A stretch of DNA of 64,000 bases from Sacculina carcini (Eukaryota; Arthropoda; Thecostraca; Sacculinidae): assembly GCA_916048095.2 (NCBI GenBank), contig OU696589.1:1651001-1715000 (forward strand), in the 5' to 3' direction. Positions 4,263-48,483 of this stretch are shown here, piece by piece (positions within the stretch are counted from its first letter, which is position 1; each line of letters starts with the position of its first letter). The position numbers were made by a program, and so were the translations under genes. Below the pieces are notes generated by a model, which saw only the letters and a program-made list of their open reading frames with translations, had not been told where the DNA came from and did no database searches.

Positions 4263-4625
4263 GTCGCCAACCTCCATTCACAATAGGCAGCTTGGTTGGT
4301 TGCCAGCCCTCTCGAGAATCCAGCACAAACTATGCTGTCTTGTGTTCAAGCTCATTCACACTTCCTCTCCTTCTACATAATTATCCACGCTTATTGAATG
4401 CTGTGATCGTCCTTTCAGCCGCCGACCTGTGCCTCCCGTCTGTCCTACCGCTCTGCATGAATCCACCTGGTCTGCTAAATCCTTCTACTTCTCTGCTCCC
4501 CGACTTTACAACTCGCTTCCTCCTCACTTGTGGAAACTAAGATCTTACTCTGCCTTTTTTTCTGCGTCCCATAAATATTTGTTGTCCTTACCTTCCCCCC
4601 TAACTCCTCCCTTCCGCTATCACTG
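4262..4625 (+). pseudogene. non-LTR retrotransposon RT C-terminus, remnant
   Basis: Conceptual translation across at least one frameshift gives the typical end of a LINE ORF2: a 'LGWLPALSRIQHKL' phrase (about 4285-4330), then 'FSRRPVPPV', then 'SAPRLYNSLPPHLWKL' (about 4496-4545) and a short C-terminal helix. These match the post-RT C-terminal region of CR1/Jockey/RTE-like LINEs. The fragment is truncated upstream and degraded, with no ORF1, endonuclease or RT core. Downstream sequence to about 4900 may be its 3' UTR. Confidence 0.7.
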
Positions 4626-5879: not shown

Positions 5880-6244
5880 CAGGACCGGATTAACGTATAG
5901 GCAAAGTAGGCAGTTGCCTAGGGCCCCGCGCTCTTGGGGGCCCCGCGCTTTTGGGGCCCTATAGGCAGTGGGGTGCTGCAACTCAAATATCTTAGGGGTC
6001 AATCTCATTATTTTCTCAACTTCTCATAGTCTGCCCTCATTGTCAAATACTTTGAAACATTCTCCCACTAATCCACGTTGTATTTTTGCATCAGCCAGGA
6101 GGTAACCTGATAAAACATGGCACGTGTATAGCCAGCTCACTTAGATCCAGCTCACCCGCACACTTAAATCCACACACGCATACATACACATTGTGTACGC
6201 ACAGCGAGAGCAATATTCGTGTGTTCCATTCGTTTGATGCTGGG

Positions 6245-8712
6245 AGGTTTTATGCGAGTGGATCTCAAAAACGAAAAAAGGAACTTCAAGAACAAGAAAA
6301 TAAAATCAAAGACACATTGTGGGAAGATCACAGATATGCTGACGAGTTTCTGACGCCATAAGCACAGTCGAATTCCCAAATGGGGCAGGAGCTACTTAAA
6401 GCTTTTGCATAATTTCAGATCCAACGTCTCCTCCTTCCAATATGACAGATGTTTCATCGCCAGAATTTGTCTTGGAAAATCCAGCCTCATTGCCAAATAT
6501 TATCCCCGATTATCTACGAAATGAATTTGTGGCAGAAAATTTCAGTCAGCCTCTTAACATTCACTTTGTGAAGCCAGCGAGGATTTATGATGATGGAAGT
6601 CGTCGCTACTTGACAGAATCTATGTTCTATAGGAAGCTGGCGAATCCCGAAACTGTTCAGAGATCATAGATGGTGTATTCTGAAACCTCGGGAAAGGTCT
6701 ATTGTTCAGTATTTAAGCTGTTTTCTCCGATAGAAAATCATTTTACGCAGGGTTTCAACGACTGTAAAAACTCAAAACGAGTTGAGCACCATGAAAACAA
6801 TGCCTCTCACAGGAGTGCAATTTTAACCAGTGTGATCCGTGCACAGAAAACAGGATTAATGGAAAAACATTTAGAAAATCAGACTGAAAAAGAGCGGACA
6901 TACTGGAGAAGAGTTCTAGAAAGAGTTGTTGCTGTGATAAAGTTCATATTTGTAAGAGGACTTGCTTATCGTGGAGACAATGAAATTGTTGGTTTGGAAA
7001 ACAATGGCAACTTCTTAGGGATCATAGAACTTTTAGCACAATTCGATCAATTTTTGGCAAATCATATGTCACGCTTTAGAAATGCTGGAAGATGCATTGT
7101 TTCCTACATGTGTTCGACTACTTGTGATTTGGGGATCATGACTGCAAAGGTCCTCCATAGCATCATTTCAGTCGTGAAAACTGCAAAGTACTTTGCAATA
7201 AGTGTGGATTCGACACCATATATTTCACACACAGCTCAATTGACATTCATTGTTCGCTTCGTCGACCCCACTGGTAAGCCAGTAGAACACTTCATTAAAT
7301 TCATTTCTCTTCCTGGCCATGATGGAGAAACGAGATGAAAAACATTGAAACCAGCTGCTGAAACTGCTGAAACCGTGCAAAGTCGCACGAGATGAAACCC
7401 AGTCGGTATCTGTAAGGAGAGAAACAGAGGACTTAGCATTGAAAATGGAAAATTTTGAATTGGCCCTACTCTGTCTGTTTTGGGACTGTATACTGGAACA
7501 CTTAAAAGCCACCAATAAGACGCTCCAAAGAGTCAACATTTATATGTCAACATGTGTTAACCTCTACGAAGGATTAGTGGAGTTTGCAAGATCACTTCGT
7601 AGTGATGAAGCTTTTGATATTTTCGAACAGAAAGCTAAGTTGCTAGTGAAGGACTCGAGTTACCGGGCGGACCTTCAGCGCTCAGAAAAAAAGAAACGAA
7701 ATTTTAATGAGCCAGATATCGGAATTTGTATACCACCGAAGCAGAGGTTCAAAACAGGCACATACTATGTTTTTCTGGGTTCACTAATAACGGAATTGAT
7801 GAAAAGATAAGAAGCATATCATGACGTCAATATAAAGTTTGGATTTCTTTTCCAAATCACCAACATTCCGGATGCTGAATTAAGGGAAGCTGCGGTGAAG
7901 TTGCAGCAGCACTTTTCGGCAGATGTTGACGAAACATTTGCTGAAGAAATTGTCCATTTTCCGGATATATGAAACAGATTGAAGCGATCTCTGAACAATG
8001 TGCACAATCAGCTGCTCTTAAACATATCAGGGATGCAAGTGTTTCACAAGCATTCCCAAATGTTGACATCGTTTTCCGCCTTTACTTGACGCTACCTTCT
8101 TTTATCTGTGAAGTGGAGTGTAGTGTTATTGGTGTTTGGCTCCGGTGTAACCAATAAAACCACCAAGCACAATATGTGTATTCATGAACACGGACATAAT
8201 CACGAGTTCGCCACATATGTCCAAGCACTGCCACACACCGCCACACACTACATCTCCTACCCGACACAAAGACGTCTTTATATAACAGACATCATTTTGA
8301 TGTGTGTGTGTGTGTGTATGTGTGTATGTGTGTGTGTTGATGACGCAATAAGTCGTGGAAAGATAATGTGTGGATTGGTTGCAGCGAACACACGATGACG
8401 CAAGATTGCGTGCAGTTCCCGTGATTGTATGAGTCGTATGCATTTCACAGTACACACGCCACACGTTCATTCTCTGTCTTGAAAATAATAAAAAACCACC
8501 TCCGTTCGACAATAAGCCAAGACAAAATGTGTAGCTTAGGGTTGTTGATTATTGAGTCCGATCTCACAAATAATATTGATTTCTACGATGTTATTGCTGA
8601 TTTTGCAAAAATGAAGTGCAGAAAAAAGTTTATATACTCATGTAATATTGCTGGTGGAATGGTAGTCACCGGTCACCTCATGATTACGATTACGATACAT
8701 GTTTCATGAATA
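6245..8712 (+). pseudogene. hAT transposase (zinc finger MYM/TTF type), broken
   Basis: Pieces in order: a Lys/Glu-rich start ending in '..YADEFLTP' (6245-6360); a segment at 6442-6669; a TTF-type zinc-finger-like region with 'MVYSETSGKVYC' (6670-6830); the RNase H-like core with 'FAISVDST' (about 7195-7215), carrying one catalytic Asp; more core at 7439-7810; and the C-terminal dimerisation region, split as '..ICEVEC' (to 8118) and 'RSFSVLKIIKNHLRST' (8466-8510) followed by 'IDFYDVIADFAKMK'. Breaks are a TAG at 6667, a TGA at 7336, an apparent internal deletion around 7340-7440, frameshifts near 7810 and 7975, and the 8119-8465 insertion. The family resembles proteins annotated as zinc finger MYM-type 1-like. 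Confidence 0.85.
8119..8465. mobile_element. unclassified insertion inside hAT transposase
   Basis: About 340 bp interrupt the conserved hAT C-terminal dimerisation motif, whose halves sit on either side, so this is a secondary insertion. It contains a (GT)n run at 8298-8336. It begins like an LTR (tgtagtgtt), but I find no clean TSD or matching second copy, so solo LTR versus MITE is unresolved. Confidence 0.5.
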
Positions 8713-13912: not shown

Positions 13913-14398
13913 TGTAATTTCACATTGTTGATCGGAGGCGCCAGAGCGAGTGATGCGCGAGATGTTCCGATATATTGAACATTTGCTTACATGCGATTCA
14001 ACGTTTGTATGTCTGTGTGTCTGTATACACGCGCAGCACTGGTCGCGTTGGCAGACGCCGTGTATGTGTGTGTGTGTGCAGTCATGTGTATGTGTGGGAG
14101 TGTATGTGTGCGCGTGTGCGTCTATTCTGTACTGTCTTGGTGGCGATGTAACTGGGGAAGTATGGGCAGTGTAAAGGGGGTTCGATGAAGCGTTGAGTCT
14201 CATGTAGGAGTCGAGATCGAGCGTTCATGATGTGAGTGTGAACGGTGCGCGGAAGCGTTGAGTGACAGTGTACGGCGGTATGCAGAGTGCATTGTTCTTG
14301 GTGTTTTGTACTCGTTTCCGCGGTGTGAGTATGGCGTGTTGCGTGTATTTACTCGGTGTCATTTCATCGTCCATCATTTGTTCTGCAATACAACTACA
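13913..14398 (+). repeat. element I 5' LTR
   Basis: Matches 16226-16756 over its length apart from short indels. Starts TGTAATTTCACATTG and ends CAACTACA. Confidence 0.9.
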
Positions 14399-14410
14399 AG
14401 CTATTTCGGC
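14399..14410 (+). promoter_or_regulatory. element I primer binding site, complementary to tRNA-Phe 5' end
   Basis: AGCTATTTCGGC abuts the LTR with no spacer. Its reverse complement, GCCGAAATAGCT, is nucleotides 1-12 of metazoan tRNA-Phe (recalled from known tRNA sequences). The identical 12-mer sits at the same place in elements II and III, while the flanks differ. Confidence 0.6.
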
Positions 14411-14411
14411 C

Positions 14412-16225
14412 ATGTCGGTGCACGGTGATGAACAAGGGACCAGCATGGACGTGCGTCTAATTCCGGAGTTCAGTGGATCGGACGCGCAGAATATCACAGA
14501 GTGGTTGGACAGATTGGAACTCGTATGTGATCTTCAAGGTGTGACTGACGTGACAACCGTCATTGCTCTGCGTTTGGCCGGCGGTGCTTTTGCTGTGTAC
14601 CAGCAGCTACCGATCTCTGACAGAAAATGCGTGCAGAAAGTGAAGTCGGCCCTGCAAGCGGCATTTGGAATTTATCCATAAACAGCCTACGAGCGGTTTC
14701 ATGCCCGCACTCTACACCCCAACGAGACGCCCGATGTATACCTGGCCGATCTCAAGAGATTGGCTTCTGTGTTTGGTGGAGTACCTGACATGGCTCTCCG
14801 GTGTGTATTTGTCTCGGGTTTGCCTGCAGAGTGCGCACAACGTTACGTGCGAATTCTCGACTTGAGTCGCTGGATCTGGCACAGCTGACAGTTAGGGCTC
14901 GCATACTGCTCCAAGAGAACCAGCACAACGAAATGTGTCTGGCCGCCAGGGGACCAACAGCAGCTCATACAGCACAGTGAGAAACCAAGTGTTTATGTTG
15001 CGGAGGCATTGGTCATATCCAGCGCCATTGTCCATCCAACCGCAACCGCAGGAGATTTGATCACGACAAGCACAACAAACAAAACGGCCGACACAGTCAT
15101 GGCAAGTCGGGAAACGACAGCGGAGACGCGTCGTCACGGACGTCCGGACTCCTCTCCGAGACAAAACTAGCCAGGGCGCTACCGACGGTGAATGTGACCA
15201 TCCACGGTGCTGATCGACGTGCGCTCGTCGACACGGGCTGCAGTCAAAGCATAGCACATGTGTCCTGCTGCATCAAATGGGCGTGCAAAAAGGTGAGCGT
15301 CGTCACCATGCGCGGTGAAATATTCTCGACCTTGGGCACGGGCACAGTGACACTCAGTGTTGGTGCTGATTTTGTGCCGTGCCATTGAGTTGTTGTCTCA
15401 CAGACAAGACCACTGGGGTTTGATTTCATTTTGGGAATGAATGCAATTACGTCTTTGAAGGGCATGTGTATATCTGCCGACGGTCATATCACATTCAATC
15501 CATGTGCGTACGGTTCTGGGACACAGGGCACACGGATGCACACTCACACTGCGCTGGGTCTCACCGATGATAGAAGGCATGCTAATGATAAATTACGTGA
15601 CGCACCGATTTGTGCGGCTGGCATAGACAGAAGTCAACTGATTAAGAATAATCATCACGCTTCTCGTCACCCAGGCGTAAGAAGGACGCTGGTTTTTGCT
15701 CGCAAAGCCGACCCAGGTGTCACCCGTCGCGAGGTGAACGCAGTAGTGCGAAAGTGGGACGAGTGTAACTTTGTAGATTCCGCCCCAGTGAAGTGGAGGA
15801 AAGGACACTTGAACGTTAAGGACGTGTGGGACAGGACAGGGCGTGTGAGACGCAGTCATTTGCGCGTGAGATGCCAAGACGTTGAAAATTGTCCGATTGT
15901 TCTAGGTGACTTGGTGTGGACAAAGCCAACAGACAGTCGCTGTTACAGCAAGTATTTGCCCGGCGTCGTGACCCGTGTTGTGTCCAATCATTCGGTGGAT
16001 GTTGACGGTGTGCCGCGACATGTTCGTGACCTGCGTATGCGACATACTCAACCCGAAGTCGCTAAGCAACCGAGTTCAGACGATGATGAGTTGATTGTGA
16101 GTTTTGGGCGAGCCCCGAGGGCCAACGTGGAATCGCACAACGTCGCACCCGCAGAATCGCCTCGGAGGTCTAATCGACGGCGTGTAGCCCCTCGGTGTTT
16201 TTGTTGCGATGAGCAACAGGGGGAG
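14412..16225 (+). pseudogene. element I gag-pol remnant (Gag, protease, integrase ends)
   Basis: Gag starts at ATG 14412 directly after the PBS. It includes 'RLAGGAFAVYQQL', a TAA at 14679 in an otherwise continuous frame, and a frameshift near 14865. A CCHC zinc knuckle (CLCCGGIGHIQRHC) lies near 14995-15036. The protease site VDTG lies at about 15227-15238, followed by an LGMD-like 'ILGMNAITSL' (15431-15463). The frame then passes into the integrase N-terminal His/Cys region (about 15650-15800) and directly to the C-terminal tail (GDLVWTKP, VDGVPRHV) at about 15905-16200. RT, RNase H and the DDE core are missing, so the element could only move in trans. The layout matches II and III. Confidence 0.8.
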
Positions 16226-16688
16226 TGTAATTTCACATTGTTGATCCGAGGCGCCAGAGCGAGTGATGCGCGAGATGTTCCGATATAGTGAACGTTTGCT
16301 TACATGCGATTCAACGTTTGTATGTGTGTGTGTCTGTATACACGCGCAACACTGGTCGCGTTGGTAGACGCCGTGTATGTGTGTGTGTGCAGTATGTGTG
16401 GGTGTGTATGCGTGCGCGTGTGCGTCTATCCTGTACTGTCTTGGTGGCGATGTAACTGGGGAAGTATGGGCAGTGTAAAGGGGGTTCGATGACGCGTTGA
16501 GTCTCATGGAGGAGTCGAGATCGAGCGTTCATGATGTGAGTGTGAACGGTGCGCGGAAGCGTTGAGTGACAGTGTACGGCGGTTTGCAGAGTGCATTGTT
16601 CTTGGTGTTTTGTACTCGTTTCCGCGGTGTGAATATCGAGTGTTGCGTGTATTCACTCGGTTTCATATTGTGCGATTGTGTGATTGTG

Positions 16689-16722
<34 letters not shown>

Positions 16723-16756
16723 CATCTTCCATCATTTGTTCTGCAATACAACTACA
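16226..16756 (+). repeat. element I 3' LTR
   Basis: Copy of the 5' LTR preceded by a polypurine tract (aacagggggag, 16214-16225). Contains a (TA)n run at about 16690-16720 that is absent from the 5' copy. Confidence 0.9.
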
Positions 16757-17242
16757 ATGTGAACACAAGAGTAAAAAAAATATTAATATAACGGGCGATC
16801 ACAACTGTAATATGAAATGGAACGAGACATATATAGAAGATACGATCAGTTTACTGAAGAAGGAGCTCCTAAAACTGGTCCAAAACCATTTTTTGACGCA
16901 GCACATAGAGGAGGACACTCGAAAAAGAGGAAGTGATCAGCCATCAATGTTGGATGTAGTGTTCACTAAACGAGAAGAACAAGTACAAAACATCAAATAT
17001 CAACCACCATTTGGAAGCGACTCCATTGTGACCACTTTTGAATATATACAAACTAAAGATGTTATTGTTCACGAAACAAAACTGAAACGTATTTTGTACT
17101 ATAAAAGAAGGAGCTACGAAAGTATGAACGACTTCTTAAGAGAAATAGACTGGGAAGAAGTGATGCAAGGAAAAGATATAGACGCACAGTATAACAGTTT
17201 TTGTAAGGTGTACAATGATGGAGTGAATTAGTGTGTGCCCAG
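16757..17242 (+). mobile_element. LINE segment 2: endonuclease C-terminal part and linker
   Basis: Continues the LINE frame broken at 13912: 'INITGDHNCNMKW' (about 16774-16815) is the GDFN-type motif of APE endonucleases, and 'GSDSIVTTFEYI' (about 17015-17050) corresponds to the SDH region, with H replaced. One frame is open from 16566 through 17231 (TAG), which includes LTR sequence upstream of 16757. It is cut at 17242 by element II. Confidence 0.8.
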
Positions 17243-17572
17243 TGTAGGCTGAACAAAGGAACGAAAAAAATGTATTCACCAGCAACAACTCTATCACACC
17301 GTATTCACCGTACCATCTCTCACACTCGCAATGCCCCAAGCTCCACTGACGCACGTCATTTTCCACATTGCAAAAGCGTCCTGCAAATTCTATTCCAAGC
17401 GATCCGATTGCACATACGCACACGCGCACAGGCTCGCACATACACACAAGCACATACACACACACATGCACACAACAACACGCAGACATTTGCAGAACCA
17501 TTCATTCCGATTATATGCAACACTGAATGCAACTGAATGACGAAATCGGTCAACTATACACATCAAACTACA
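17243..17572 (-). repeat. element II 3' LTR
   Basis: 330 bp, about 99% identical to 19481-19810. In element orientation starts TGTAGTTTGA and ends GCCTACA. Confidence 0.95.
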
Positions 17573-17674
17573 CACCCTTGTGATTTAATAATCATTATAA
17601 TTTCGAATTGAACACGAAACTCGACACACCCCAATAGAAACGACTTGAAAACAATTATATCCCTATAAACTACA

Positions 17675-18757
17675 CTAGCTACTCACATAGTCATTCATCC
17701 AGATTGGCCGTCTCACCTCTCTCCTCGGTCGCTCTATGGTAGGTGCAGATTCTGAATGTGTGCTCTCGTTTTCACCGTTCGGAGGAGGACGAATCTCCTC
17801 GGGCCCTGGATCAATAACGGGCCGCAGGTCCAGCACATGTCTAGGCATACCGTCAACTGAGATGTTGTTGTTGGAGTTCACTCTCGTAACGACGCCCTTG
17901 CTCCAATGAGAAGTGCACCGCGCGTTGGGGGGCTTCACCCACACTTCATCCCCCAATTTGACTGTCGACCCCGATACCCGGTCTTCATCTCCGCTTTGAG
18001 AAATATCTCTGAGACATCTCCAGTCGTAAGTGTGCACTGATCGTTGCGGTACGCTTTCGTCTTTTTGACCATTCCGCGGAGTACAATTATACCAGAACAC
18101 GGCTTCAGTAGGGCAAATCTCCCCTCTCTCAGCAATAGCTTTAACAGTTCGGTGGTTTCTTTCAATTATGCCATTGCCTCCTGGTCGATACGCTGCACGA
18201 AATAACCTCCGAACTTTCCACCGTGTCAACATGTTTCCCAAATGCTGAGACCGGAATGCAGCACTGTTATCTAGAAGAAGTTCATCTACCGGTCCCCGCT
18301 CGAGAAATATGCTGTTCAACACCTCGGTCACCTCTTGTGCGTCTTCTCTTCTCAGCTTTCTCCAGAGGGCGAAACGGCCTGGTCCACAATCGATGATGGT
18401 CAGAAAGGGTACTTGTCTATAGTGTGTGACATCCACACCTTCAATCAGCCGATCAGCAACAACGACTCTCAGTCGGATACACCTTCCGTTCACAACTAGT
18501 GCCACATCATCAGCATATGTACACCTAATTTGACTCCCATCAAAAGCTTGCACGAACACCGTACCATCAGTCTGTGACACGTATTTCTCATGAACAACGC
18601 TTGTAGAGCACCCAGTGTCTATCAGACCTTTGGTGTGTGTATCCCCAAGAACAACATCAATGATGGGTAACTGTGCATGAGGCGCCTGACGGTTAGAAGG
18701 GCGGTTGCTGGCGCACGCACCGCCCCCTAGGAGTTTTCCGAATTCTGGTTGGGACAC
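17675..18757 (-). CDS. element II protease-integrase polyprotein, RT deleted
   Basis: An uninterrupted 360-codon frame. The aspartic protease active site LIDTGCSTS lies at residues ~45-53. At residues ~109-112 the protease end runs straight into the integrase core: 'GVDVTHYRQ', where related element III has 'AVDTTHYQG'. The first catalytic Asp is thus preserved at the junction. The second is in 'LLLDNSAAF' and the Glu in 'NGIIERNHRT', so the DDE triad is complete. The C-terminal tail (GDEVWVKPP, VDGMPRHVLDLRP) follows. There is no good ATG; the frame overlaps the end of gag in the -1 frame, implying expression by frameshift. Integrase could act on LTR ends if cDNA is supplied by another element's RT. 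Confidence 0.9.
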   Translation of the reverse strand: MSQPEFGKLLGGGACASNRPSNRQAPHAQLPIIDVVLGDTHTKGLIDTGCSTSVVHEKYVSQTDGTVFVQAFDGSQIRCTYADDVALVVNGRCIRLRVVVADRLIEGVDVTHYRQVPFLTIIDCGPGRFALWRKLRREDAQEVTEVLNSIFLERGPVDELLLDNSAAFRSQHLGNMLTRWKVRRLFRAAYRPGGNGIIERNHRTVKAIAERGEICPTEAVFWYNCTPRNGQKDESVPQRSVHTYDWRCLRDISQSGDEDRVSGSTVKLGDEVWVKPPNARCTSHWSKGVVTRVNSNNNISVDGMPRHVLDLRPVIDPGPEEIRPPPNGENESTHSESAPTIERPRREVRRPIWMNDYVSS

Positions 18758-19452
18758 TCACCTGAAATATGACCGCTCTGGCCACATTTAAAGCACACCA
18801 CCGTCTTCTCGGTACAGTCCCGGATGAAGTGCGCGCCACCACATCGAAAGCACCCGCCCACCTTCGGTCTTGACGGAATTCGGCTCCCTTTTCCACGTCC
18901 GCTACTTTGTGCACTCCTTCCGGCTTTCAGAGCAACAGCAGCATGTCCACCATGAGAGGTATGTCCATTCGTAGTCAGCACTCTTGCGTGCCCTATCAGC
19001 ACACTCATCGAGAGGCTCATGACATCATCGATGCGGCGCAAGATCGAACTGACGTGGTCGGGAAACCCATTAACAAAACAGAGCTTCACAATATGCTCCA
19101 GCGCAGCTTTGTCGAAGCGAGCCAGTCCAACCAGACGCCGCAGCTCATTGGCATAGGCGTCGACTGACTCGCCACCCCGCTTCCTCTCGGATAGCTTCCC
19201 GAGCGCCACGAACGCATCATCACTGAACGCCTCCTTCAATCGCGTTTGAATCGCATCGACGTCATTCTGAGCTTCTTCATCCATCTCCAGATAGACCGCC
19301 AGAGCATCATCCTCCAGATAGAGAGGCAAGAAGCTTGCCAAATCAGTGACCTTCGCTAGCTTGGCCACCAAATTTACTTTTTTTAACCAAGCCACCACGT
19401 TGCCCTCGCCTGTGAAAGGCCTCACCATGTCGCTTTTCACAATTCCAGTCAT
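18727..19452 (-). CDS. element II Gag, intact (241 aa)
   Basis: ATG at 19452, 17 nt past the PBS; stop TAG at 18727-18729. The capsid-like region includes 'FLPLYLEDDALAVYLEM' and 'DAYANELRRLVGLA'. Two CCHC zinc knuckles (CFRCGGAHFIRDC and CFKCGQSGHISGEC) lie near the C-terminus, typical for RNA-packaging nucleocapsid. The length suits gypsy Gag. The last ~10 codons overlap the protease-integrase frame. A G-GAA-AAC heptamer lies just before the stop; it is only a weak slippery candidate because its first three bases are not identical. Confidence 0.9.
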   Translation of the reverse strand: MTGIVKSDMVRPFTGEGNVVAWLKKVNLVAKLAKVTDLASFLPLYLEDDALAVYLEMDEEAQNDVDAIQTRLKEAFSDDAFVALGKLSERKRGGESVDAYANELRRLVGLARFDKAALEHIVKLCFVNGFPDHVSSILRRIDDVMSLSMSVLIGHARVLTTNGHTSHGGHAAVALKAGRSAQSSGRGKGSRIPSRPKVGGCFRCGGAHFIRDCTEKTVVCFKCGQSGHISGECPNQNSENS

Positions 19453-19468
19453 AGTCGAGTGCAAAATA

Positions 19469-19480
19469 GCCGAAATAGCT
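19469..19480 (-). promoter_or_regulatory. element II primer binding site, complementary to tRNA-Phe 5' end
   Basis: On the minus strand AGCTATTTCGGC follows the 5' LTR directly. It is identical to the block in elements I and III and is the exact complement of tRNA-Phe nucleotides 1-12. Confidence 0.6.
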
Positions 19481-19810
19481 TGTAGGCTGAACAAAGGAAC
19501 GAAAAAAATGTATTCACCAGCAACAACTCTATCACACCGTATTCACCGTACCATCTCTCACACTCGCAACGCCCCAAGCTCCACTGACGCACGTCATTTT
19601 CCACATTGCAAAAGCGTCCTGCAAATTCTATTCCAAGCGATCCGATTGCACATACGCACACGCGCACAGGCTCGCACATACACACAAGCACATACACACA
19701 CACATGCACACAACAACGCGCAGACATTTGCAGAACCATTCATTCCGATTATATGCAACACTGAGTGCAACTGAATGACGAAATCGGTCAACTATACACA
19801 TCAAACTACA
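19481..19810 (-). repeat. element II 5' LTR
   Basis: 330 bp, paired with 17243-17572. Outer flank is cccag. Confidence 0.95.
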
Positions 19811-20791
19811 CCCAGTAAAAGATGTGTCAAGAAATAGAAACAATGGTTCGATAAAAGATGTATAGAGGCAAAGAAAGAAAGAGACAGATTATGGACGAAA
19901 TACAGAGAAAAACGAAGCACCGAAAGGTATGAGGAATACAAGAAGAGCAGAAACAGATATACCACCATCAGGAGAGAAACTCAGAGAAGATTTGAAAAGG
20001 ATATTGTCGAAAAATACAAAAATAACCAAAAATTATTCTGCGGATATATCCGGAATAATACACAAATCAAAAGCAAAATACAGAGTATAGATGTAAATGG
20101 GCGGAAATACACAGATGAAGAGGATATATTTGAGATTTTCAATGAGAACTTCCAATCTGTGTTCACAGAAGAGTTGAGCTGGAAACCAAAAAATGAGACT
20201 GTATCAGACACAAACATGGAGGAAATAATAATTACCGAACATCAGGTAAAGAGCGAAATGAAGATTCTCGACAGATACAAGTCCAGTGGTCCATACACAT
20301 AGTGAGTTATGTGCTCAAAGAGTGTGCAGAAACATTATGCAAACCATTGGGAATAATCATGAAAAACTCACTAATAAGAGGTAAATCACCAAAGATATGA
20401 AAAACAGCCAACATAACACCTCTGTTCAAAAAAGGCAACAGCGAGGACCCAAAAAATTACAGACCAATATCATTGACCAGCATTGTTTGTAAAATTATGG
20501 AGAAAATTATAAGAAAACAGTTGACTAAATATTTGGAGACAGAGAAATTGATTTCAGAGAAACAATTTGGTTTCAGAAGTGGAAGATCTACAACATCAAA
20601 CCTTGTCAGTTTCTACAGTCGCGTCACAAAGATCATTCAAGAAAGAGAGCACTGGACTGATTCAATCTACATCGATTTTGAAAGGACCTTTGACAAGGTT
20701 TCTCACAAGAAATTGTTATACAAATTGATAAAAACTGGAGAAGTCAGCAAGCAACTAGAAAGACGGATAGGTGACTTCCTTACGGATAAAG
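19811..20791 (+). mobile_element. LINE segment 3: linker and RT N-terminal half
   Basis: Continues the same LINE. A Lys/Arg-rich linker (AKKERDRLWTKYREK, from about 19867) is followed by RT motifs in 20404-20791: 'LFKKGNSEDPKNYRPIS' (across a frame break), 'EKQFGFRSGRSTTSN' (20559-20603), and 'SIYIDFERTFDKVSHKKL' (20661-20715), where the catalytic Asp of RT motif A (here D-F-E) is visible. Cut at 20791 by element III. Confidence 0.85.
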
Positions 20792-21143
20792 TGAAGTATG
20801 TATTGTATAACGATGCAGTGGTGACATGATGAAATAACACACACACCCAAGGGAATAACAACAACGCTAATTCCGTCTCAGAGAACAACACGCAAACACG
20901 CAAATACAGCACACACACCACGCGCAAATACTCTCGACTCCTGCACCGCACTGCCGCTCGTCTCAGCTTGTACCCGTCTCCTCTCGCCTGCAAGATGACA
21001 CCGCTGCAGCACTTACACCATTCCGCACAGACACGCATACACACATACGCACATACACTTTGCTGAATCAACATTGCTATACATAGATACATACAACGCC
21101 GCTCTGACGCAACATACACACTCATCACATATACAACACCACA
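20792..21143 (-). repeat. element III 3' LTR
   Basis: 352 bp. Starts TGTGGTGTTG and ends ACTTCA in element sense. ~98.6% identical to 24636-24987. Confidence 0.95.
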
Positions 21144-21162
21144 CGCCCCCGTGATATATAAA

Positions 21163-22494
21163 TCATAACTCATAATCTTGTAACCACACCGGCGGTCTCC
21201 TGATCCTAGACGACCTCCGAAGAACGTCACTACGAGACTGCTCGTCATCAGTTTCTCTTCCATTTTCTTCATCATCGCTCACTAACGGCAATCGCCCCCC
21301 AGCCTGATCCGCATCATCCTCGACCGCATCACCACTTGACCGGAGGAAGGACACGTTATTTGCGCTTTCTTCATTGACAGGGCGCAAGTCCAACACATGA
21401 CGCGGCATCCCATCCACCTCCACGTTCACGTCAGATACAACACAAGTCACACGTCCGGCTAACCATCGGGAAGTACAGCGAGCATTCACAGGCTTCACGA
21501 CAACCTTTTGACCCACGACATACCTGAATGACTTCTCATACTCAAATTTCGCGGGTTGCGACCTTGGATGTCGCCATTTGTAGGTGTGTAAAGCAGCACT
21601 CTGGGTCGAATCATTGCTAGCAGCGTCTTGGATGGCCAGATTATAAAAGAACACTGCATCCAGAGGAGAACCACCAGTGCGAGCAGCTGTCCGCTTTATC
21701 GTCCTGTGATTCCGCTCCACTATACCATTGCCGGCAGGCCTATGTGCCGCACGAAACCTCCTGCGAACTCCCCATCGCTGGCACAAGCTGGATATTGCAG
21801 CAGATCTGAACGTTCTACTGATGTCCATGAGAACCTCTGACGGAGGCCCTCTTTCCCTGAAAACTTGTTCCAAATTTGTGGCTACCTCCGCTATATTTTC
21901 GCTGTCTACTTGTCTCCACACAGCAAATCGACTAGGACCACAGTCAACAATGCTTAAATAACAGCGACCTTGATAGTGCGTGGTGTCAACTGCTAACCGG
22001 GCCCAATTTTTCTCCACCGACAACGAGCCAGTATCATGACGAGCAGGCGGTGGATCTATCACTGAACACCTACTGCACCGCTTCACGCATTGCTTCACTT
22101 CGTCAATTGTCACATCCTGCATCACCATTTTAGCCAGTTGATAGGTTATGTCGACGCCGAAGTGATGATCTTGATGGAGCGTATCTAATGAAACGACACA
22201 CACTGCAGTAGATGCGTCATCGTTATCATTATTTTTAGCACATGGTTCGTCGCGCTTTCCGATCTTTTCGCTCTTGAACCATCTCTTGTCCACCCTTGTC
22301 AGCACATCAACCTTATTCTTTTCTGATCTTACCAAAGTCACTGACAGATCCAAATCTACTTCACACACCAAATCTTTCAAAATCGACAACCGCCTTTTAA
22401 CCAACATTTCAGACATGCCAGTGACTTTTATCCTGCGATCCCCTGTGATTGTAGAATTAACCCACTTGTGAACAATCGCAGAATCAGTCATCAC
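21163..22494 (-). pseudogene. element III RNase H remnant and integrase
   Basis: A long open frame of 443 codons, +1 relative to the upstream RT frame (break at about 22496). It starts with an RNase H-like 'VMTDSAIVHKW', the conserved D-S region; the N-terminal RNase H half seems absent. It then has an integrase Cys pair (CVKRCSRC), the DDE residues in 'AVDTTHYQG', 'VLMDISRTF' and 'NGIVERNHRT', the signature DCGPSRFAVW, and a C-terminal tail with VDGMPRHVLDLRP. The same tail occurs in elements I and II. The integrase itself looks intact; its link to RT is broken. Confidence 0.85.
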
Positions 22495-22495
22495 T

Positions 22496-24058
22496 TCAAT
22501 TCACTCCCTCACTGATTCTCTTTGTAAAACTGCACGCCACTCTGAGCCAACCACATACAGGATAATGCCCGACAATTCTACCACACACGGAAAATAGCTG
22601 ACGTTTTGTCATGGAATGGTCAACGTCCTCAAGACTTGGCAAGACATTTCCTCGTCCAAAAGACAGCTCGCTCTTATCATCTCTTTTCAGCGCCAGTCCC
22701 AAAACGCGTCCGCCATCTAACTTCTCAGGTGCCTTTGCCACAAGTCCAAATCGAGCTAGATGCTTAACAACACTCATAGCTGATATGACATCCCCGTTTA
22801 CAATGACATGGTCAATGTAACAGTCAGTTGCTGATTGTATTTTCTCGTCCTGCTCCAACACTTTCTTCACGATTTTTGACATGATTTTGGGAGCACTGCT
22901 TAACCCAAAGCCAAGTCTTGTCAAAATATACACTATCCCTTTGAAAATTACACGTTGATAACGCCACAGATTTTCATCTACATGAATTTGCAGGTAGGCC
23001 GATTTCAAGTCAACAATTTTCAAATTTCTAGACATTCTCCTCCACTTTCGTAGGGCTTCACTGCACACTGCCACATCCACTCCAGGGTTACTCTCAACAG
23101 AACAGTTCAATTCCCGAAAATCCATGACAGGTCTGACTTTATGTTTATTAGCCTGCAAAACGGCCATCAACGGTATTATGCCCTTCTTGTCTCGTTGATC
23201 GTCACACTTTTTCAACCAACCCAAGGAGATCCAACGTTGAACCTCTTCATCGAACTCCTGCTTCAGTTTGGGGTCATAAGCACTTCTGTAGCAGTCTACT
23301 GCGTTATTCAGTACAGGAGGCCCGTTTTGCCACTTGTACTTCACCACCCATTTTTCACCGTCGAACCTCGCCTCAAAATCACTGTCAGCAATGAATAGGC
23401 TCGGTATTGCATCGTGCAAAGACGCTTCCCCACGCTGGGTAACCTCATCGACTAGACAGGCTACACCTCCCGCTTTGTCTGCCCCACTGTCCGCTTCAAC
23501 ACTTATCCCTCCAAACACCACGCCTCTAGCTCCTATATACGCGCCCCCGAGTCTCATAATCACGTCCAAACCAAGAATTACCTTGACATTGCCCAACAAT
23601 CTGTCTAACACAACAACATTCATACAAAAAAACTTACCTCCAACGGACAGATAAATCATCGCTGTACCCGCACACTCGACACTCCGACCGTCAACACTGG
23701 TCACGCGACAAAACCCACGAACACGACACACAAACTCCCGCAGCACAATTGTTTTAGTGCAGCCCGTGTCGACAACAGCACTCACACGACGCCCGTTGAC
23801 AACGGCTGAGACACAAGGTAGCGCCTCTACAGCTCGTTGTGAGTCGGGAGAGCTGCCGGCGCACCAGTTCTCCCCTCGTCGTTTCCCGAAGAGCCACCGA
23901 CTGCAGCGTGAGAGACGTCCGACGATCGCTGACAAAACCGCATCAAATGAGGCCCCCCACATCGGAAACACTCGATCCTGCGCCGACTCCCGTTTGATGA
24001 CACGTTTGAACCGCGAACGACACGACCACAATCCCTCGCCAGGTGTGGGCCGCCGCAA
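22496..24058 (-). pseudogene. element III protease and reverse transcriptase
   Basis: Open frame overlapping gag. Protease VDTGCTKTI is followed by 'ILGLDVIMRLGG'. RT motifs: 'MDFRELN', 'IVDLKSAYLQI' (catalytic Asp), 'GLSSAPKIM', and the YxDD box, which reads YIDH (about 22805-22820). The second catalytic Asp is therefore replaced by His, and this copy should lack RT activity. After RT the frame runs to a stop at 22496, where RNase H is truncated. The frame lies -1 relative to gag, as in element II. Confidence 0.85.
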
Positions 24059-24609
24059 TTAAAACATCCGCTGAACGGCTTCTTCTCCTCGACTCGCACG
24101 CTCCTCGAGACCATGGCCGCTCCTCCGCTTTCCTCTTCCAACAACACTCGAGCTCGTTCAATGACATCATCCAGACCGACCGTTTTAATGTTCGCCATAG
24201 TTCTCAGCTCCTTGGACACATCTCGAGGCATCCCCGTCACAAAGGCATTTTTCAATACCTCGTCATGCTCCATGTCGGCCAGCTTCGCTAGCTTTCTGAG
24301 AGTGGACATATATACGTCTGCACACTCTCCACTCCACTTGCAACAGGCGAATCTCTCGTAGGCCGAAAATCTGTTAATGGAGAATGACTCAAGGAGCTTC
24401 TGTTTTATCTTGGAGTACACATTCTTCTTCTCTTCGCTCATCTCATCAAATACATCATATGCCTTTCCGTCGAGAAAAAGCGGCAACAAATTCGCCAGGT
24501 CGCTGATCTTCTGTAGTTTGGCGACTTTCTCGAACTTATCAATCCACTGCACCACGTCTTGTCCTCCATCGAACTGCAGCATGACATCATTTAGCTTCAG
24601 GTTCGCCAT
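23827..24609 (-). CDS. element III Gag, intact (260 aa)
   Basis: ATG at 24609, about 14 nt past the PBS; TAG at 23827-23829. The same fold-like phrases as element II Gag are present ('LLPLFLDGKAYDVFDEM', 'YMSTLRKLAKLADM'). Two CCHC-like knuckles follow: CFNCGGPHLARDC and CFRCGGPHLMRFC. The frame is uninterrupted. Confidence 0.88.
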   Translation of the reverse strand: MANLKLNDVMLQFDGGQDVVQWIDKFEKVAKLQKISDLANLLPLFLDGKAYDVFDEMSEEKKNVYSKIKQKLLESFSINRFSAYERFACCKWSGECADVYMSTLRKLAKLADMEHDEVLKNAFVTGMPRDVSKELRTMANIKTVGLDDVIERARVLLEEESGGAAMVSRSVRVEEKKPFSGCFNCGGPHLARDCGRVVRGSNVSSNGSRRRIECFRCGGPHLMRFCQRSSDVSHAAVGGSSGNDEGRTGAPAALPTHNEL

Positions 24610-24623
24610 GACGATAATGGGGA

Positions 24624-24635
24624 GCCGAAATAGCT
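24624..24635 (-). promoter_or_regulatory. element III primer binding site, complementary to tRNA-Phe 5' end
   Basis: AGCTATTTCGGC on the minus strand follows the LTR without a spacer, identical to elements I and II. The neighbouring bases (TCCC after it) differ from both. Confidence 0.6.
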
Positions 24636-24987
24636 TGAAGTATGTATTGTATAACGATGCAGTGGTGATATGATGAAATAACACACACACCCAAGGGAAT
24701 AACAACAACGCTAATTCCGTCTCAGAGAACAACACGCAAACACGCAAATACAGCACACACACCACGCGCAATTACTCTCGACTCCTGCACCGCACTGCCG
24801 CTCGTCTCAGCTCGTACCCGTCTCCTCTCGCCTGCAAGATGACACCGCTGCAGCACTTACACCATTCCGCACAGACACGCATACACACATACGCACATAC
24901 ACTTTGCTGAATCAACATTGCTATACATAGATACATACAACGCCGCTCTGACGCAACACACACACTCATCACATATACAACACCGCA
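24636..24987 (-). repeat. element III 5' LTR
   Basis: 352 bp, paired with 20792-21143. Confidence 0.95.
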
Positions 24988-25075: not shown

Positions 25076-25361
25076 TGTAGTGATATTGCGAGCATTAGTT
25101 ATAGATGAATAATGTGTCGCTAGATGTCGCAGCCAGTGTAAAACGGACGATCTCACATGAACATTATCCAAGGGGTGGCCTTGCCTTTGGCAGCGAGAGA
25201 ATATTGAGCAGTGTGCGTTGGGCAGTGTTTGAGTCGTGGTCCCACTCCAATCGTAGTGACATATGTGTGTTTCATTGTGTACAAATTGTGTTCATTGGAT
25301 TTGTGTAATCTTTGGCGTGTTGTAAACTTGAATAGTGTTTAATAAATCGTCAACCCAAACA
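25076..25361 (+). repeat. element IV 5' LTR
   Basis: 286 bp with an 'aataaa' polyadenylation-like signal near the 3' end (about 25340). Its last base is the A of the gag start codon. Confidence 0.95.
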
Positions 25362-28300
25362 TGGCGCAGCCGATCAGTGAATCTCCCTCAAGTGCAGAAA
25401 CACCTGCGATTTTCGCAAGCACATGGACTGGAAAGTTATCACCGCCAAGCAAATTGGACCTCAGCGTTGACCGAGGAGACTCATTCACGATTTGGAGAGA
25501 TCGATGACAAGGTTATTATCTTCTATCAGGCCTCGGTAGTCAGCCTGCAGCCACCCAAATGGAAGTTCTTCGAACATGTCTCAGTGACGACACACTGCGC
25601 GCTGTCAAAAACTTCAATCTGTCGACACAAGACAGCGGAGACGTACACGCCGTTTTAAAAGCGTTGGCCACATATGCTAGGGGACAGATCAACGAAGTGA
25701 TTGAGCGGAAAAATTTCAACTGCCGTCGTCAAAAGCCAAGCGAGGTTTCTGAAGATTTATTGTTGGGCCTGAGAGAACTCAGCAATACATACAATTTTTG
25801 CACTTCGTGCAAGGACAGTTTGATTCAAGATCGAATTGTCGTCGGTATACGTGACTCTGGCACTGTCAAGAAGCTTTGCAGTGTGAAAAAGCTCACTCTT
25901 CCTACGTGCATAGATAGATGCATAGATATCTGTCGCAGCGAGGAAGCAGCAGATCGCGATATGTCCATTTTGACATACGAGGAGAGTTGCACAGCTCGAG
26001 TGAGCGCAGGCCGTCTGACTCACAGACCCAGTAACCCAAAATTATACCAGGCGCAGCAGCAGTGTGGTAGATGCGGTCGTCAACACACGAGGGAGCAAAA
26101 ATGTCTCGCATCCGGGGCTAAATGTCGTGCATGCGGAAAACATGGACATTTTGCAACAGTGTGCCGATCGCCAAAGAAGCAGAGGCACGACACCCGCAGC
26201 CGAACACCAGTATCTGCGGCTGTAATTTCAGCTGTCTCAGCACTCAGCGCTCCTCGCATCACTGTGCTAGTCGACGGCAAAGTCAACATCGAGGCGTTAC
26301 CCGACTCGGGCGCAGACATTTCGGTTGCCGGTCGTGACGTGTTAGCTCAGATAGACGATGTCAACAATTTGCTGCAGAGCAAAGACGAACGTTGGTCGGC
26401 AGATGATTCTCTCATGCGGGTCATTGGTGTGCTACCCACGAGTGTGACTCTGGGTAACCGAGAAGTTGACATCAACTTACACATACTGGAGGGAGTATCT
26501 GGCATGTTACTGTCATGGCAGGTATGTCGTGCGTTAAATATCTTGCCACAAAACTATCCCAGTGAAATAATAAGCAGCATTGCAAGCACAAAAGCTATGC
26601 CCACTAGCACAGATCAGAAGACAAATGGGGAAAACATCTTTTCTGAGTTTGAAAAGGTCTTCTCAGACAAAGTACAAGTCATGCCTGGCGAGATGTTTCG
26701 CATCCATCTAGCAGACGACGCCGAGCCTCACAGTATTTCAGCGCCTCGCCGAATCCCACTACCTCTGCGCAAAGGATTGAAAGAAGAGTTGGACAACCTA
26801 ACATCTCAAGGTATCATAACAGCTGTGTCACAGCCAACCGAGTGGTGTTCCCCAATTGTCGTCACACCAAAGAGATCGGGAGGTGTACGATTATGTGTGG
26901 ATCTCACCAAACTTAACCGTTGCGTTCGGCGTGAGGCGTACCAGTCCGACACTCCAGCCGAATTTGTCGCGTCAATAGTCGGTGACAACGCCAAATTTTT
27001 TGCGGTGTTTGATGCGATCAATGGATACCACCAGTGCCCACTGGCACCAGAAAGCAGAAATCTGACAACGTTCATGACTCCGTTTGGCCGCTATATGTTT
27101 ACGCGCGCACCATACGGAATTTCATCGATCTCTGATCATTATAATCGGCGCATGGACGAGTGTCTCATGGGAATACCAGGCATGCGTAGGTTGGTAGATG
27201 ATGTTATCATTTACGGTCGTGATGAGGCAGAGCTTCAAGCACGTGTGCACTTGTTCCTGACACGCTGCCTTGAAAAACGTGTCACACCCAATCGCGAAAA
27301 GCCCAATTCATGGTGAAAGAATATAAATTTGCTGGATTTCTAGTCGGAGAAAATGGATATAAAGTCGATCCTGCTCTACACGAGGCTATCGCATGATTTC
27401 CATCACCCAAGAACATCAGCGACCTACGGTCATTTTTCGGTCTATGCAACCAGCTAGGTGCATTTTCAGAAGAACTCGCTGAACATTGGGCTCTATTGCG
27501 TGGGTTGTAGAGTGCCAAAAATCCCTTCCTGTGGGATGAAGCACATGAAGCATCGTTCAAAAATGCACGTGAAGCTCTCGCATCGTCCAAAACATTGATG
27601 TGTTTCAACCCTGAAGCGCCTACGATCCTTCACACCGATGCTAGTCGACTTAACGGACTCGGGTTCGTGCTACAGCAGATACATAGAGACGGTACAATGT
27701 ACATCATTCAATGTGGATCTCGTTTAATCAGTGATACTGAGCAGCGATATGCAGCCATCGAGCTTGAGCTGTTAGCTGTGTGCTGGGCGTTCAAAAAGTG
27801 CAATTTATTCCTCTGTGGACTCAAGCATTTTGAGGTGCACGTCGATCATCGTCCACTCGTGCCCATTCTCAACTCCAAATTGATAGTCCAGCTGGTTAAT
27901 CCGCGACTTCAACGACTCCGTTTGAAATTGGAATGCCTTGGACCCTTCAAAGCCCATTGGGTGCCGGGAAGGCGTCATTTAGCCGCAGACGCACTGTCGC
28001 GGAAACCGATTGAACAATCACCATGTGAGGTGGACGAATGTGCGGACATGCAGCCAATCATAGCATCTATTGTGAGCTCAGAAGGCATATCGGAGAGACA
28101 GCTGGATAAAGTTCGATACGAGACTGTTAGAGACACAGAACTACAAAAGTTGAAGGGTCAAATAAAACAGGTTTTCCGGATAGCATCCATGACGTTGACA
28201 TGTCTATTCATCGCTACTGGAACATTCGTGAGAAGCTTTCATTTGACGAAGATTTAATCCCATATGGTCGTCGGTTGGTTATACCAACAGCCATGAGAAA

Positions 28301-29395
28301 AGAAATTCTTCATGAATTACATGCCAGTCACGCAGGCAAGGAGCGAACGAAACAAAGGGTTCGTGCGATTGTGTACTGGCCAGGCATTGATGTAGACATC
28401 GACAACAGAACCAAGTCTTGTGAACAGTGTCAAGAATACCTGCCAAGCCAAACGAAGGAGACCATACTGCATCACGACCAGCCAACTCGACCGTTTGAGT
28501 TGATGTCAGTTGAAATTGGGGAATACGGAAACCTCAAGTTTGTGGTTGCTGTCGACCATATGTCGGGCTGGTAATTTGTGAACGATTTGGGCTCTACGGC
28601 CGTGACGAGACAACTGCTGGACACGTTTCGGACAATTTTCTGCATGGTCGGTGTTCCTACAACAATATATACAGACGGTGGTCCACAGTTCACCTCGGGA
28701 GATTTCTGCAAGTTTGCCGAGAAGTGGATGTTCCGACATGTACGTTCATCTCCTCATTTTCCCCAATCAAATGGGAGGGCAGAGGCTGCGGTTATATCCG
28801 CCAAAGCACTGATAAAGAAGTGCTGGAACGTCGACAGGTCTTGTCTCCAAGAATATGATTGGTGCAAAGGAATTTTGCAGTTACGAAACACTCCGGGACC
28901 CGACGGCAAGTGCCCGCAGAAATTCAATACGGCAGACCACTTCGAGACATGGTTCCCGCTCACAGACGAAATTTCTGCGTGGAGTGGCAAAAGTGTGAAA
29001 CCGAACGAAAAGCAGCATCTCGGCAAAAAAGCAAGATAAGAGATATAACGCCACGGCCAAAGACCTACCAGAACTCTCTGCTGGTGTTCATGTAGCTGTT
29101 CAGCACCACGAAACAGGTCTGTGGGAGTGTAATGGAGTGGTGATCGAGACGTTGCCCCATCGGCGCTATCTTATAAAGCTCGACAGCGGACGAGTGGTGG
29201 CTCGCAACCGACGCCACTTGCGACGTCGATATGGGCACGCCGCGCCGCCTGGTGCACATGCAGCTGACGCGACTAGGACGAACAATCAGCGTTCGAGAAA
29301 CAGCCGACAACAGCCTGGTCGCCAACAAGAGACACACCTCCGCCGCTCCACTCGTTCAAGACGTCGCCCAGAAAGATTGATTGAAGCCATCGAAT
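25361..29395 (+). pseudogene. element IV gag-pol, multiple lesions
   Basis: Starts at ATG 25361, with MAQP encoded over the PBS. A TGA at 25506 interrupts Gag. Zinc knuckles (CGRCGRQHTREQKC, CRACGKHGHFATVC) lie at about 26068-26163. Protease DSGADIS is at about 26299; RT follows with 'CVDLTKLNR', 'FDAINGYHQCPL' and an LVDDV box (27191-27205). A 1-nt deletion near 27300 and stops at about 27397 and 27508 precede RNase H ('HTDASRLNGLGFVL', 27631). A shift near 28190 comes before the integrase HHCC region, and a TAA lies at 28572. In integrase the first catalytic Asp position reads Glu ('SVEIGE', about 28506); 'TDGGPQF' and 'NGRAEAAV' keep the other two acids. The C-terminal part ends at 29395. 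Confidence 0.9.
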
Positions 29396-29417
29396 AACTT
29401 CGATAACTAGGGGGGTG

Positions 29418-29704
29418 TGTAGTGATATTGCGAGCATTAGTCATAGATGAATAATGTGTCGCTAGATGTCGCAGCCAGTGTAAAACGGACGATCCCACAT
29501 GCCACATGATCCTAGGGGTGGCCTTGCCTTTGGCAGCCAGAGAATATTGAGCAGTGTGCGTTGGGCAGTGTTTGAGTCGTGGTCCCACTCCAATCGTAGT
29601 GACATATGTGTGTTTAATTGTGTACAAATTGTGTTCATTGGATTTGTGTAATCTTTGGCGTGTTGTAAGCTTGAATGGTATTTAATAAATCGTCCACCCA
29701 AACA
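29418..29704 (+). repeat. element IV 3' LTR
   Basis: 287 bp, paired with 25076-25361; one 1-bp indel around 29505. Confidence 0.95.
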
Positions 29705-30345: not shown

Positions 30346-30519
30346 TGTATGCTATATTTACGATCACAATACGAGTACAACACAATACTACACGAACAAT
30401 AGGATAACAACGTCACGACCTGCACACAACCACTGCTGGACACACACTGACTCGTGGCGGGTAGCGTCATCCACGCTAGCCGCGCCCGCGCCCTCTGGGC
30501 GGGGCAGCACCACACTACA
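30346..30519 (-). repeat. element V 3' LTR
   Basis: 174 bp, ~98% identical to 35028-35201. Confidence 0.95.
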
Positions 30520-32137
30520 TCTCCCCTCCAAGCGACGGAAGGGGGGCGCTGCTGGTCCTGCAGACGTAGTCGCTCAGGTGCGGCGGCGGTCTGCGGGTTC
30601 GGTCGCTTCGGCGAGGGTTTGGTGTATGTAGAGCATCTGATGTTCCGCTCACATCCTCCCCCGGCGGCGGCGCGGGTCCGCTGCTGCTGCTGGTCTCTCG
30701 CGGCGGTTGCGGCGGCGACAGCTGTGGGCAAGGCAGGCACATGGCCTCTGGCCGCGCTGCGCTGACGAATGGTGGCGGCGGCACTTCGGAGGCGGGTGCG
30801 CTGACTGCTGGCCGCAGGTGGCGGCGGTTACGCCAGTAGAGACCGCCATGCGGTAAGCGTACCGCGTACTGGCGGCGACGACCAGTGACAGCGACCACGC
30901 CAGTCCGGTCCCAGCGGCCTGTTGTCGGGTCCTGGAGAGCCACTGTAGTGCCGGGCGATAACGGCGGCAGTGGTCTGGCTGACCGATTGTAGTTGGTGAT
31001 CTGCCTGTCGTGCGCGGCCGCTGCTCGGAGATCACACTCAGCGGTGGACGGCTGCCATTCAGGCAGGAACGCGCGAGGATGCGCCGGGACGGCAGACGAC
31101 ACGGGGCGACCGTACAGCAGCTGCGCGGGCGAGCGGCCGTCGGCACCAGGCTCGTTACACATCTCCAGCAGGCCGGCAACGAACGCGTCCGTGTTGAGGT
31201 CCCCGTCGTGGGCCGACTTCTGGATGAGTCGCTTCACCCGCTTGACGGCGGACTCGGCGTGCCCATTAGAGGACGGTAAGCGTGGACTGGAGAGTCGGTG
31301 ACGGACACGCCAATGTCGCAGGAACTCAGCAGTGAGACGCCCCGTGAACTGCGGGCCGCCGTCCGACGACAATATGGACGGTACGCCCGTGGCGACAAAC
31401 ACGCGCCGAAACAGCTTCACCAGCTGATGAGCAGACGCGTCAAGGCCACATTCGAACACCAGCGGCCAGTTGGAGAATCGGTCGGCGTATACGAGGAACG
31501 TTTTCCCCGCGTGGTAGAAGAAATCTGCCGACACCGATTCGAAGGGCCGTGTCGGGCGCGGTTCCGCCATGTATGGCTCTTTCCGCTGAGAGTCCTTGTA
31601 TTCGAGACACTCTTGGCATGACGAAACGGCCATGGCGATGTCGTTATTAAAGCCAGGCCAGAATACAGTCTGGCGGGCGCGTTGAACCGTCCTGACCTGC
31701 CCCTGATGGCTTTCGTGGAGGCGGCGGAGGGTATCTTTTCGCAGGCGCTTGGGCACAAGCAGACGGCAGCCGACCAAAATCAGGTCATGGTCGGCAGTGA
31801 GCTGGTCGCGCACACCCCAGTACTGGTGAAGGCTGGACGGTAGGAGATGCTTATGCTGAGGAAAGCCGTCTAGCACGTACGGCATCAGCTGACGGCACTC
31901 GTCGGCGAGAGACGCAGCTCGCACCGCCTCCAGAGTGGTGTCGACTGGCGATGTGCGGCGGCCTTCATCTTCCTCATCTGAGAAGGCGTCTAGCGTCTGT
32001 ATGAAAAAACCAGACGAAGAGTCGTCCACGTCCGCGTCAGCACCGGCCGGCTGGGAGGGTGCGCGTGACAGGGCGTCGGCGATGTTGTGTTGTGCTCCTG
32101 GCCTCCAGCTGGCGACAAAGGTCAGGTGCAGTAGACG
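30520..32137 (-). CDS. element V integrase and RNase H tail (pol 3' half)
   Basis: A long open frame ending at about 30515, inside the 3' LTR border. It begins just after a TAG (32138-32140) that separates it from RT-RNase H in the same frame. It contains the HHCC zinc region ('HESHQGQ', 'CQECLEYK'), the DDE core ('SVSADFFYHAGK', 'SSDGGPQF', 'SSNGHAESAV'), the gypsy phrase 'MCNEPGADGRSPAQLLYGRP' and a Pro-rich C-terminus. All three catalytic acids are present. If the TAG is read through or is a recent mutation, pol is otherwise continuous. Confidence 0.9.
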
Positions 32138-33840: not shown

Positions 33841-33997
33841 AGCGCCATGTGATTTTGCGCGGTTGGTTCCCCCCCCCCCCCCCACGGAAACGGTTAGGAC
33901 CACGGTGGTCAAACGGGTGCGTTCAGCACGATAAAAAATATCACCGATATACAATGTGTCTTGTGTATTTTCGTCGTTCACAACACCATCGTTTGCA

Positions 33998-35201: not shown

Positions 35202-35212
35202 TATATATATTT

Positions 35213-48471: not shown

Positions 48472-48483
48472 TACCATTTACAA

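Follow-up and report, generated by a model that had tools for sequence, protein, structure and literature searches.

Within a 64,000-nucleotide stretch of the Sacculina carcini genome (contig OU696589.1, positions 1,651,001 to 1,715,000 of the forward strand; hereafter the window), three retrotransposons with long terminal repeats (LTRs), elements I, II and III, present the same 12-mer, AGCTATTTCGGC, directly inside the 5′ LTR. We describe this 12-mer as a putative primer binding site, complementary to the 5′ end of phenylalanine transfer RNA (tRNA-Phe). The sites and the LTRs of the three elements, in window coordinates, are as follows.

14399..14410, + strand: element I, putative primer binding site of 12 bases; exact AGCTATTTCGGC match directly after the 5′ LTR
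13913..14398, + strand: element I, 5′ LTR; repeat of 16226-16756 with 94% identity over the 453-base aligned part, edges set by eye
16226..16756, + strand: element I, 3′ LTR; from the repeat search, includes an additional AT-repeat stretch
19469..19480, − strand: element II, putative primer binding site of 12 bases; exact AGCTATTTCGGC match at the LTR edge
19481..19810, − strand: element II, 5′ LTR; 99.1% identity with the 3′ LTR, target-site duplication CCCAG outside
17243..17572, − strand: element II, 3′ LTR; from the LTR pair alignment
24624..24635, − strand: element III, putative primer binding site of 12 bases; exact AGCTATTTCGGC match at the LTR edge
24636..24987, − strand: element III, 5′ LTR; 98.6-98.9% identity with the 3′ LTR, target-site duplication TAAAG outside
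20792..21143, − strand: element III, 3′ LTR; from the LTR pair alignment

The first-pass annotation of the window had reported exact copies of the 12-mer in these three elements, with zero spacer and with differing flanks, and all of this holds: the three copies were located at those positions by sequence match, the LTR-terminal CA stands directly before AGCTATTTCGGC in each, and the bases downstream are unlike among the elements. The target-site duplications are exact in elements II and III; in element I, ATGAG is paired with ATGTG (4 of 5 bases). With uniform bases, about 0.008 exact copies would be expected by chance in 64 kb on both strands. Matches to AGCTATTTCGGC with up to two mismatches number 8 in the window against 3.4 expected, so the signal is confined to exact matches.

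The assembly of the host of these elements (264 Mb in 43 contigs) was then searched as a whole. It holds 2021 exact copies of AGCTATTTCGGC, compared with 5 for the reversed control and a uniform-base expectation of 31.5, and the LTR-terminal A precedes the 12-mer at 1975 of the 2021 places (46 are without it). Junctions were read in the window (3) and at the first 60 of the 100 places listed; since these 60 all lie on contig C1, they are not a random sample. Twenty of the C1 places (labels L015-L034) were read as 8-kb stretches and 40 as 92-base stretches, the LTR evidence in the latter being limited to the CA before the site; some of the sampled rows are near-identical (L021 and L022, for example). 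The dinucleotide CA precedes AGCTATTTCGGC in 62 of the 63 junctions. The exception is CT in L015, the other LTR of which ends in CA.

Flank similarity sorts the 63 junctions into 23 groups, the biggest with 23 members. With one member taken per group, each of the 28 downstream columns carries at most 0.48 bit; on the upstream side the values are 2.0 and 1.7 bits for the CA and 0.8-1.2 for the three preceding bases. A direct repeat ends within 14 bases of the junction, or crosses it, in 15 of the 20 long stretches; none was found at the junction in the 8-kb stretches of L016, L026, L028, L029 and L034. A stricter script, applied to the 20 long stretches and the window, recovered LTR pairs for 17 of 23 copies (the other 6 are without a pair in the stretch read), with a target-site duplication in 12 of the 17 pairs, 11 of 5 bp and one of 4 bp. 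Identity within LTR pairs reaches 100% in copies that carry the site. No canonical TGG-type site was found at the LTR edge; that every one of the 63 junctions reads AGCTATTTCGGC follows from the choice of search. The site is conserved, in sequence and in place, across families with unrelated LTR ends, and it is complementary to the published 5′ end of tRNA-Phe. Two arrangements of copies were noted on C1: L030 and L031 (C1:4328347-4340371) form a head-to-tail pair of one family, apparently with the middle LTR in common, since the site appears again after it; L021 and L022, 243 kb apart, have identical LTR edges, flanking letters and duplication, as if a stretch had been duplicated together with its insertion.

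Since a search for exact copies cannot show fixation, searches with free bases were also made. When any 12 bases were allowed between CA and one common downstream flank, CTTTTTGTTTTGGAATTA, 172 places were found at up to one mismatch. Among the 100 matches listed (flanks exact), 85 carry exact AGCTATTTCGGC and 15 do not; 7 of these 15 deviating copies include a C-to-T or G-to-A change at CpG, one has a one-base shift, and none starts with TGG. When instead four bases were left free after ACAAGCTA, 1939 places were found against 26 for the reversed control, and 71 of the 77 legible rows among the 100 listed are exact. Sites that would suit other acceptor stems (AGCTA-N4-GGC) gave no sign, as the non-TTTC rows (6 of 77) read TACT, CTTC, TTTT (twice), TGTC and TTTG. 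Free variation of the 12-mer, set beforehand as the outcome that would speak against the proposal, is not seen (85 of 100 and 71 of 77 exact). Coding constraint was rejected as an explanation, because, counted from the first ATG, the site falls into each of the three frames among the copies. The site is also retained in two short copies, L020 and L027, whose internal parts measure 682 and 714 bases. These two and the CTTTTTGTTTTGGAATTA-flank family are short copies with the same site that are seemingly mobilised by the proteins of others.

The complement of the site had been identified in the first-pass annotation with nucleotides 1-12 of metazoan tRNA-Phe(GAA). We take the human tRNA-Phe 5′ end to match GCCGAAATAGCT, the reverse complement of AGCTATTTCGGC. 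For Drosophila the identity is borne out in print: the Northern probe for the 5′ end of Drosophila tRNA-Phe(GAA), as printed in PMC7038984, ends in AGCTATTTCGGC, and GCCGAAATAGCT thus equals nucleotides 1-12 of that tRNA exactly. The site is bounded by the LTR end on one side and by tRNA nucleotide 1 on the other. If about 50 tRNAs are assumed, the chance that a random 12-mer equals the 5′ end of one of them is about 3e-6, and the chance of a match anywhere in them on either strand is about 4e-4. Read from the tRNA side, the site is the 3′ acceptor strand of tRNA-Phe, TTTCGGC, preceded toward the LTR by the complement of nucleotides 8-12. Other host tRNAs were rejected as the source, as the ten distinct 5′ 12-mers of 30 sampled loci differ from GCCGAAATAGCT by 3-7 bases.

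The proteins of these elements place them among LTR retrotransposons. The open frames of elements II and III in the window are the following.

18727..19542 (stop to stop), − strand: element II, gag with zinc knuckle (PF00098, E 2.2e-7)
17675..18757, − strand: element II, integrase core (PF00665, E 2e-6), with no reverse transcriptase (RT) matched
23827..24771, − strand: element III, gag; no Pfam match, zinc-knuckle-like repeats by eye
22496..24058, − strand: element III, protease, RT and start of DUF7047 (PF13650, PF00078, PF23088)
21163..22500, − strand: element III, integrase core (PF00665, E 3.2e-8)

Pol pieces of eight families and of element III were searched, and the gag and pol domains (protease, RT, RNase H, integrase) were found distributed among the pieces of several families and of element III. 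DUF7047 (PF23088) matched in L018, L021, L030, L033 and element III, an RNase H-type domain in L018, L030 and L033, and the integrase core in L015, L018, L021, L023, L033 and elements II and III; the pol piece of L028 gave no domain match. In L018 the order RT, DUF7047, RNase H, integrase fits gypsy. The gypsy label of the first-pass annotation nevertheless stays unproven, as BLASTP of the protease-RT region of element III against that of element V gave no meaningful match (best E 0.27). In L025 a second RT, about 3500-6200 along the element and PF00336-like in its C-terminal match, probably belongs to another retroelement nested in this copy and not to the family.

A protein search, in which 7995 candidates were scored, gave 289 relatives. 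Named sources among the best 120 of these are Oratosquilla, Palaemon, Nymphon, Argonauta, Plakobranchus, Watersipora and Hydra. A profile built from 21 relatives gave weak matches to retroviral and retrotransposon-like RT among PDB chains (best E 1.7e-6). No DNA of the relatives was confirmed in viral or prokaryote contigs, and the 33 stretches of viral contigs that contain AGCTATTTCGGC have no LTR-like flanks by eye, several of them being copies of one context.

We propose that a divergent lineage of animal LTR retrotransposons uses the 12-mer as its primer binding site and is primed by the 5′-terminal 12 nucleotides of tRNA-Phe, a reading to which we assign a probability of roughly 0.58. The earlier idea of a primer site gains from the LTR edge with zero spacer, the unrelated LTR ends, the three reading frames, the copies with 100% identical LTRs, the non-TGG sequence and the lack of a good complement upstream; priming by tRNA-Phe itself stays putative. 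The exact complement of the site is known from Drosophila tRNA-Phe, and the form of the primer in this host is putative as well.

The site would displace the acceptor stem and capture nucleotides 1-12 of tRNA-Phe, which is possible because the site repeats the TTTCGGC strand together with the complement of nucleotides 8-12. With a cut after nucleotide 12, the resulting 3′-OH would coincide with the LTR edge and could be extended into minus-strand strong-stop DNA. The cutting enzyme may be the RNase H of the element, as in Tf1, whose own RNA is cleaved between its 11th and 12th bases, or alternatively a host nuclease, as for the tRNA used by Ty5. We infer annealing, cutting and extension alike. 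By analogy, the mechanism we judge most likely is the Tf1 geometry, with the 5′ end of tRNA-Phe in place of the 5′ end of the element. A bolder version, which we offer tentatively and hold to be somewhat less probable than its opposite, is that Tf1-type priming has been turned outward in an entire lineage, whose relatives, known from protein matches, occur in crustaceans, a sea spider, molluscs, a bryozoan and Hydra. Such elements would anneal the tRNA-Phe 5′ end, cut after nucleotide 12 with their own RNase H and extend the 12-mer.

Several points weigh against priming by the tRNA-Phe 5′ end. Against the −18.7 kcal/mol of the folded 12-bp RNA duplex stands a cost, estimated from a crude fold, of about 9 kcal/mol for keeping nucleotides 1-12 of the tRNA unpaired. 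A 12-nucleotide tRNA fragment with a 3′-OH after nucleotide 12 is hypothetical, and the Drosophila 5′ tRNA-Phe fragments reported in the relevant part of PMC7038984 are of about 35 nucleotides. Furthermore, several pattern searches found no recognisable nuclear tRNA-Phe gene in the host assembly, and a host tRNA-Phe altered beyond the search patterns would weaken the proposal.

The 5′ 25-mer of tRNA-Phe has no match in the host assembly, even at 3 mismatches, and neither has the T-arm followed by TTTCGGC. A pattern from anticodon to T-arm, at up to 3 mismatches, gave four places, all typed as tRNA-Cys, and a search with the 73-nucleotide tRNA-Phe DNA returned only those four again. The D-arm with anticodon, at up to 3 mismatches, gave 14 places, the letters of which read as tRNA-Tyr and tRNA-Lys. 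GCCGAAATAGCTCA occurs twice, neither copy being a tRNA by ARAGORN or Rfam. Genes for other tRNAs are present in the same assembly (Cys, Lys, Tyr-like, Thr, Arg, Ala and Met); a tRNA family search, in which 63 of 15013 first-look candidates were scored, gave 51 matches, and the 30 loci fetched from these are Arg, Cys, Lys, Thr, Ala and Met. As tRNA-Phe itself must exist in the animal, its gene may be absent from the assembly, hidden in a stretch that reads as N, or altered beyond the patterns used.

That failure also favours a different primer. The site could serve another small RNA with the 3′ end GCCGAAAUAGCU, the match to tRNA-Phe being coincidental, and 46 copies of GCCGAAATAGCT without the LTR-terminal base are available as candidate sources. 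We regard this as unlikely: the two inspected of the 46 gave no RNA family, and a chance match of 12 out of 12 that ends precisely at tRNA nucleotide 1 is improbable (about 3e-6). Slightly less probable still is that the 12-mer is conserved as a different signal (packaging, dimerisation or translation start), with priming elsewhere. The first ATG is 0-23 bases downstream in 19 of 23 copies, which places the site just before gag in many families, and the 12-mer contains the palindrome AGCT. Zero spacing from the LTR is, however, the required place of a primer site; the site is kept in L020 and L027, whose internal parts (682-714 bases) are too short for gag and pol, and no TGG site stands at the junctions read.

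Another possibility is that tRNA-Phe anneals uncut, by its 5′ end, and that priming takes place at a second site nearby from the freed 3′ CCA end, for which the bipartite tRNA contacts of Ty1 and Ty3, as described in PMC5371799, give a precedent. Between −100 and +300, the best match to the complement of the tRNA 3′ end slightly beats shuffles (mean 3.17 versus 3.60 mismatches), and TGGTGCC is present in 4 of 23 copies (L019, L020, L025 and L027). The positions of these sites, +51, +151, +23 and +70, are however scattered downstream of the LTR edge with no common place, and we give this arrangement little credence. Self-priming of the Tf1 type, by the 5′ end of the element's own RNA, would account for the size and place of the site, which are as in Tf1 (PMC7175516, in the part concerned with priming). 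It is the least probable of all and very improbable in itself, because no good complement of the site is found upstream: in 23 of 23 copies the 500 upstream bases hold none at fewer than 3 mismatches, and in 21 of 23 the best has 4 or 5 mismatches, like shuffles. Over a longer stretch, complements with 2 mismatches occur in L015, L016 and L029, at unlike places, and those with none in elements I and II are the site of the neighbouring element on the other strand.

The first-pass annotation had read TGG in elements IV, V and VII, and by eye TGG is indeed present at the LTR end or 2 bases beyond. Elements IV (25076-29704) and V (30346-35202) carry TGGCGCAGCC directly after the 5′ LTR, which presumably fits the 3′ end of tRNA-Ser. 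A Pao/BEL-type element (35211-41616, − strand; PF05380, E 3.2e-45) has a sequence after the 5′ LTR that by eye does not start with TGG. An open frame at 6670-7338 (+ strand) has DUF4371 (PF14291, E 6.4e-8), a domain we take to be common in hAT-like transposon proteins. At 48419-50120, beside element VII, there is a 21-base tandem array with an inverted counterpart about 1.2-1.4 kb off that is up to 98-99% complementary.

The primer of copia is the anticodon region of initiator tRNA-Met (tRNA-iMet). Passages of PMC5371799 give the same region as the primer of Ty5 and state, for copia and Ty5, that a tRNA cut within its body can prime. The putative primer described here is similar in that a cut tRNA would supply a 3′-OH other than the CCA end, and different in that it would be the first 12 nucleotides of tRNA-Phe. 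The closest geometry is that of Tf1 and Tj1, where 11-12 nucleotides immediately internal to the 5′ LTR form a duplex with an RNA 5′ end and a cut just past that duplex makes the primer (passages of PMC7175516 and PMC4600332); the LTR-adjacent site of Tf1 is complementary to the first 11 bases of the element, and RNase H separates bases 11 and 12 (PMC7175516). Tf1 and Tj1 use their own RNA, whereas here the RNA is, putatively, tRNA-Phe. FunCo1 likewise has a short non-TGG site that adjoins the LTR and matches a tRNA away from its 3′ end, but the match is to internal tRNA-Lys, in the Copia clade of fungi, and priming from it is likewise putative as presented in PMC5445492. In two species of bivalves, TRIM elements have similarity to central tRNA-Tyr right after the terminal repeat; their authors were unable to name a canonical site, and the relevant passages of PMC6934838 report no common 12-mer. 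Mouse IAP and IAPE share tRNA-Phe as primer, through the usual 18-nucleotide site as given in PMC7472051 rather than through the tRNA 5′ end.

The primers of LTR elements that we found described are the tRNA 3′ end, part of a cut tRNA and the element's own RNA. A search of the open-licence papers of PubMed Central brought up none that describes a primer site matching the tRNA-Phe 5′ end; an earlier account may exist in subscription journals or element databases. Scans limited to TGG-type sites would overlook such elements. If the proposal is true, the first 12 nucleotides of a tRNA would be a further way to start reverse transcription, and tRNA fragments would be tied directly to transposition.

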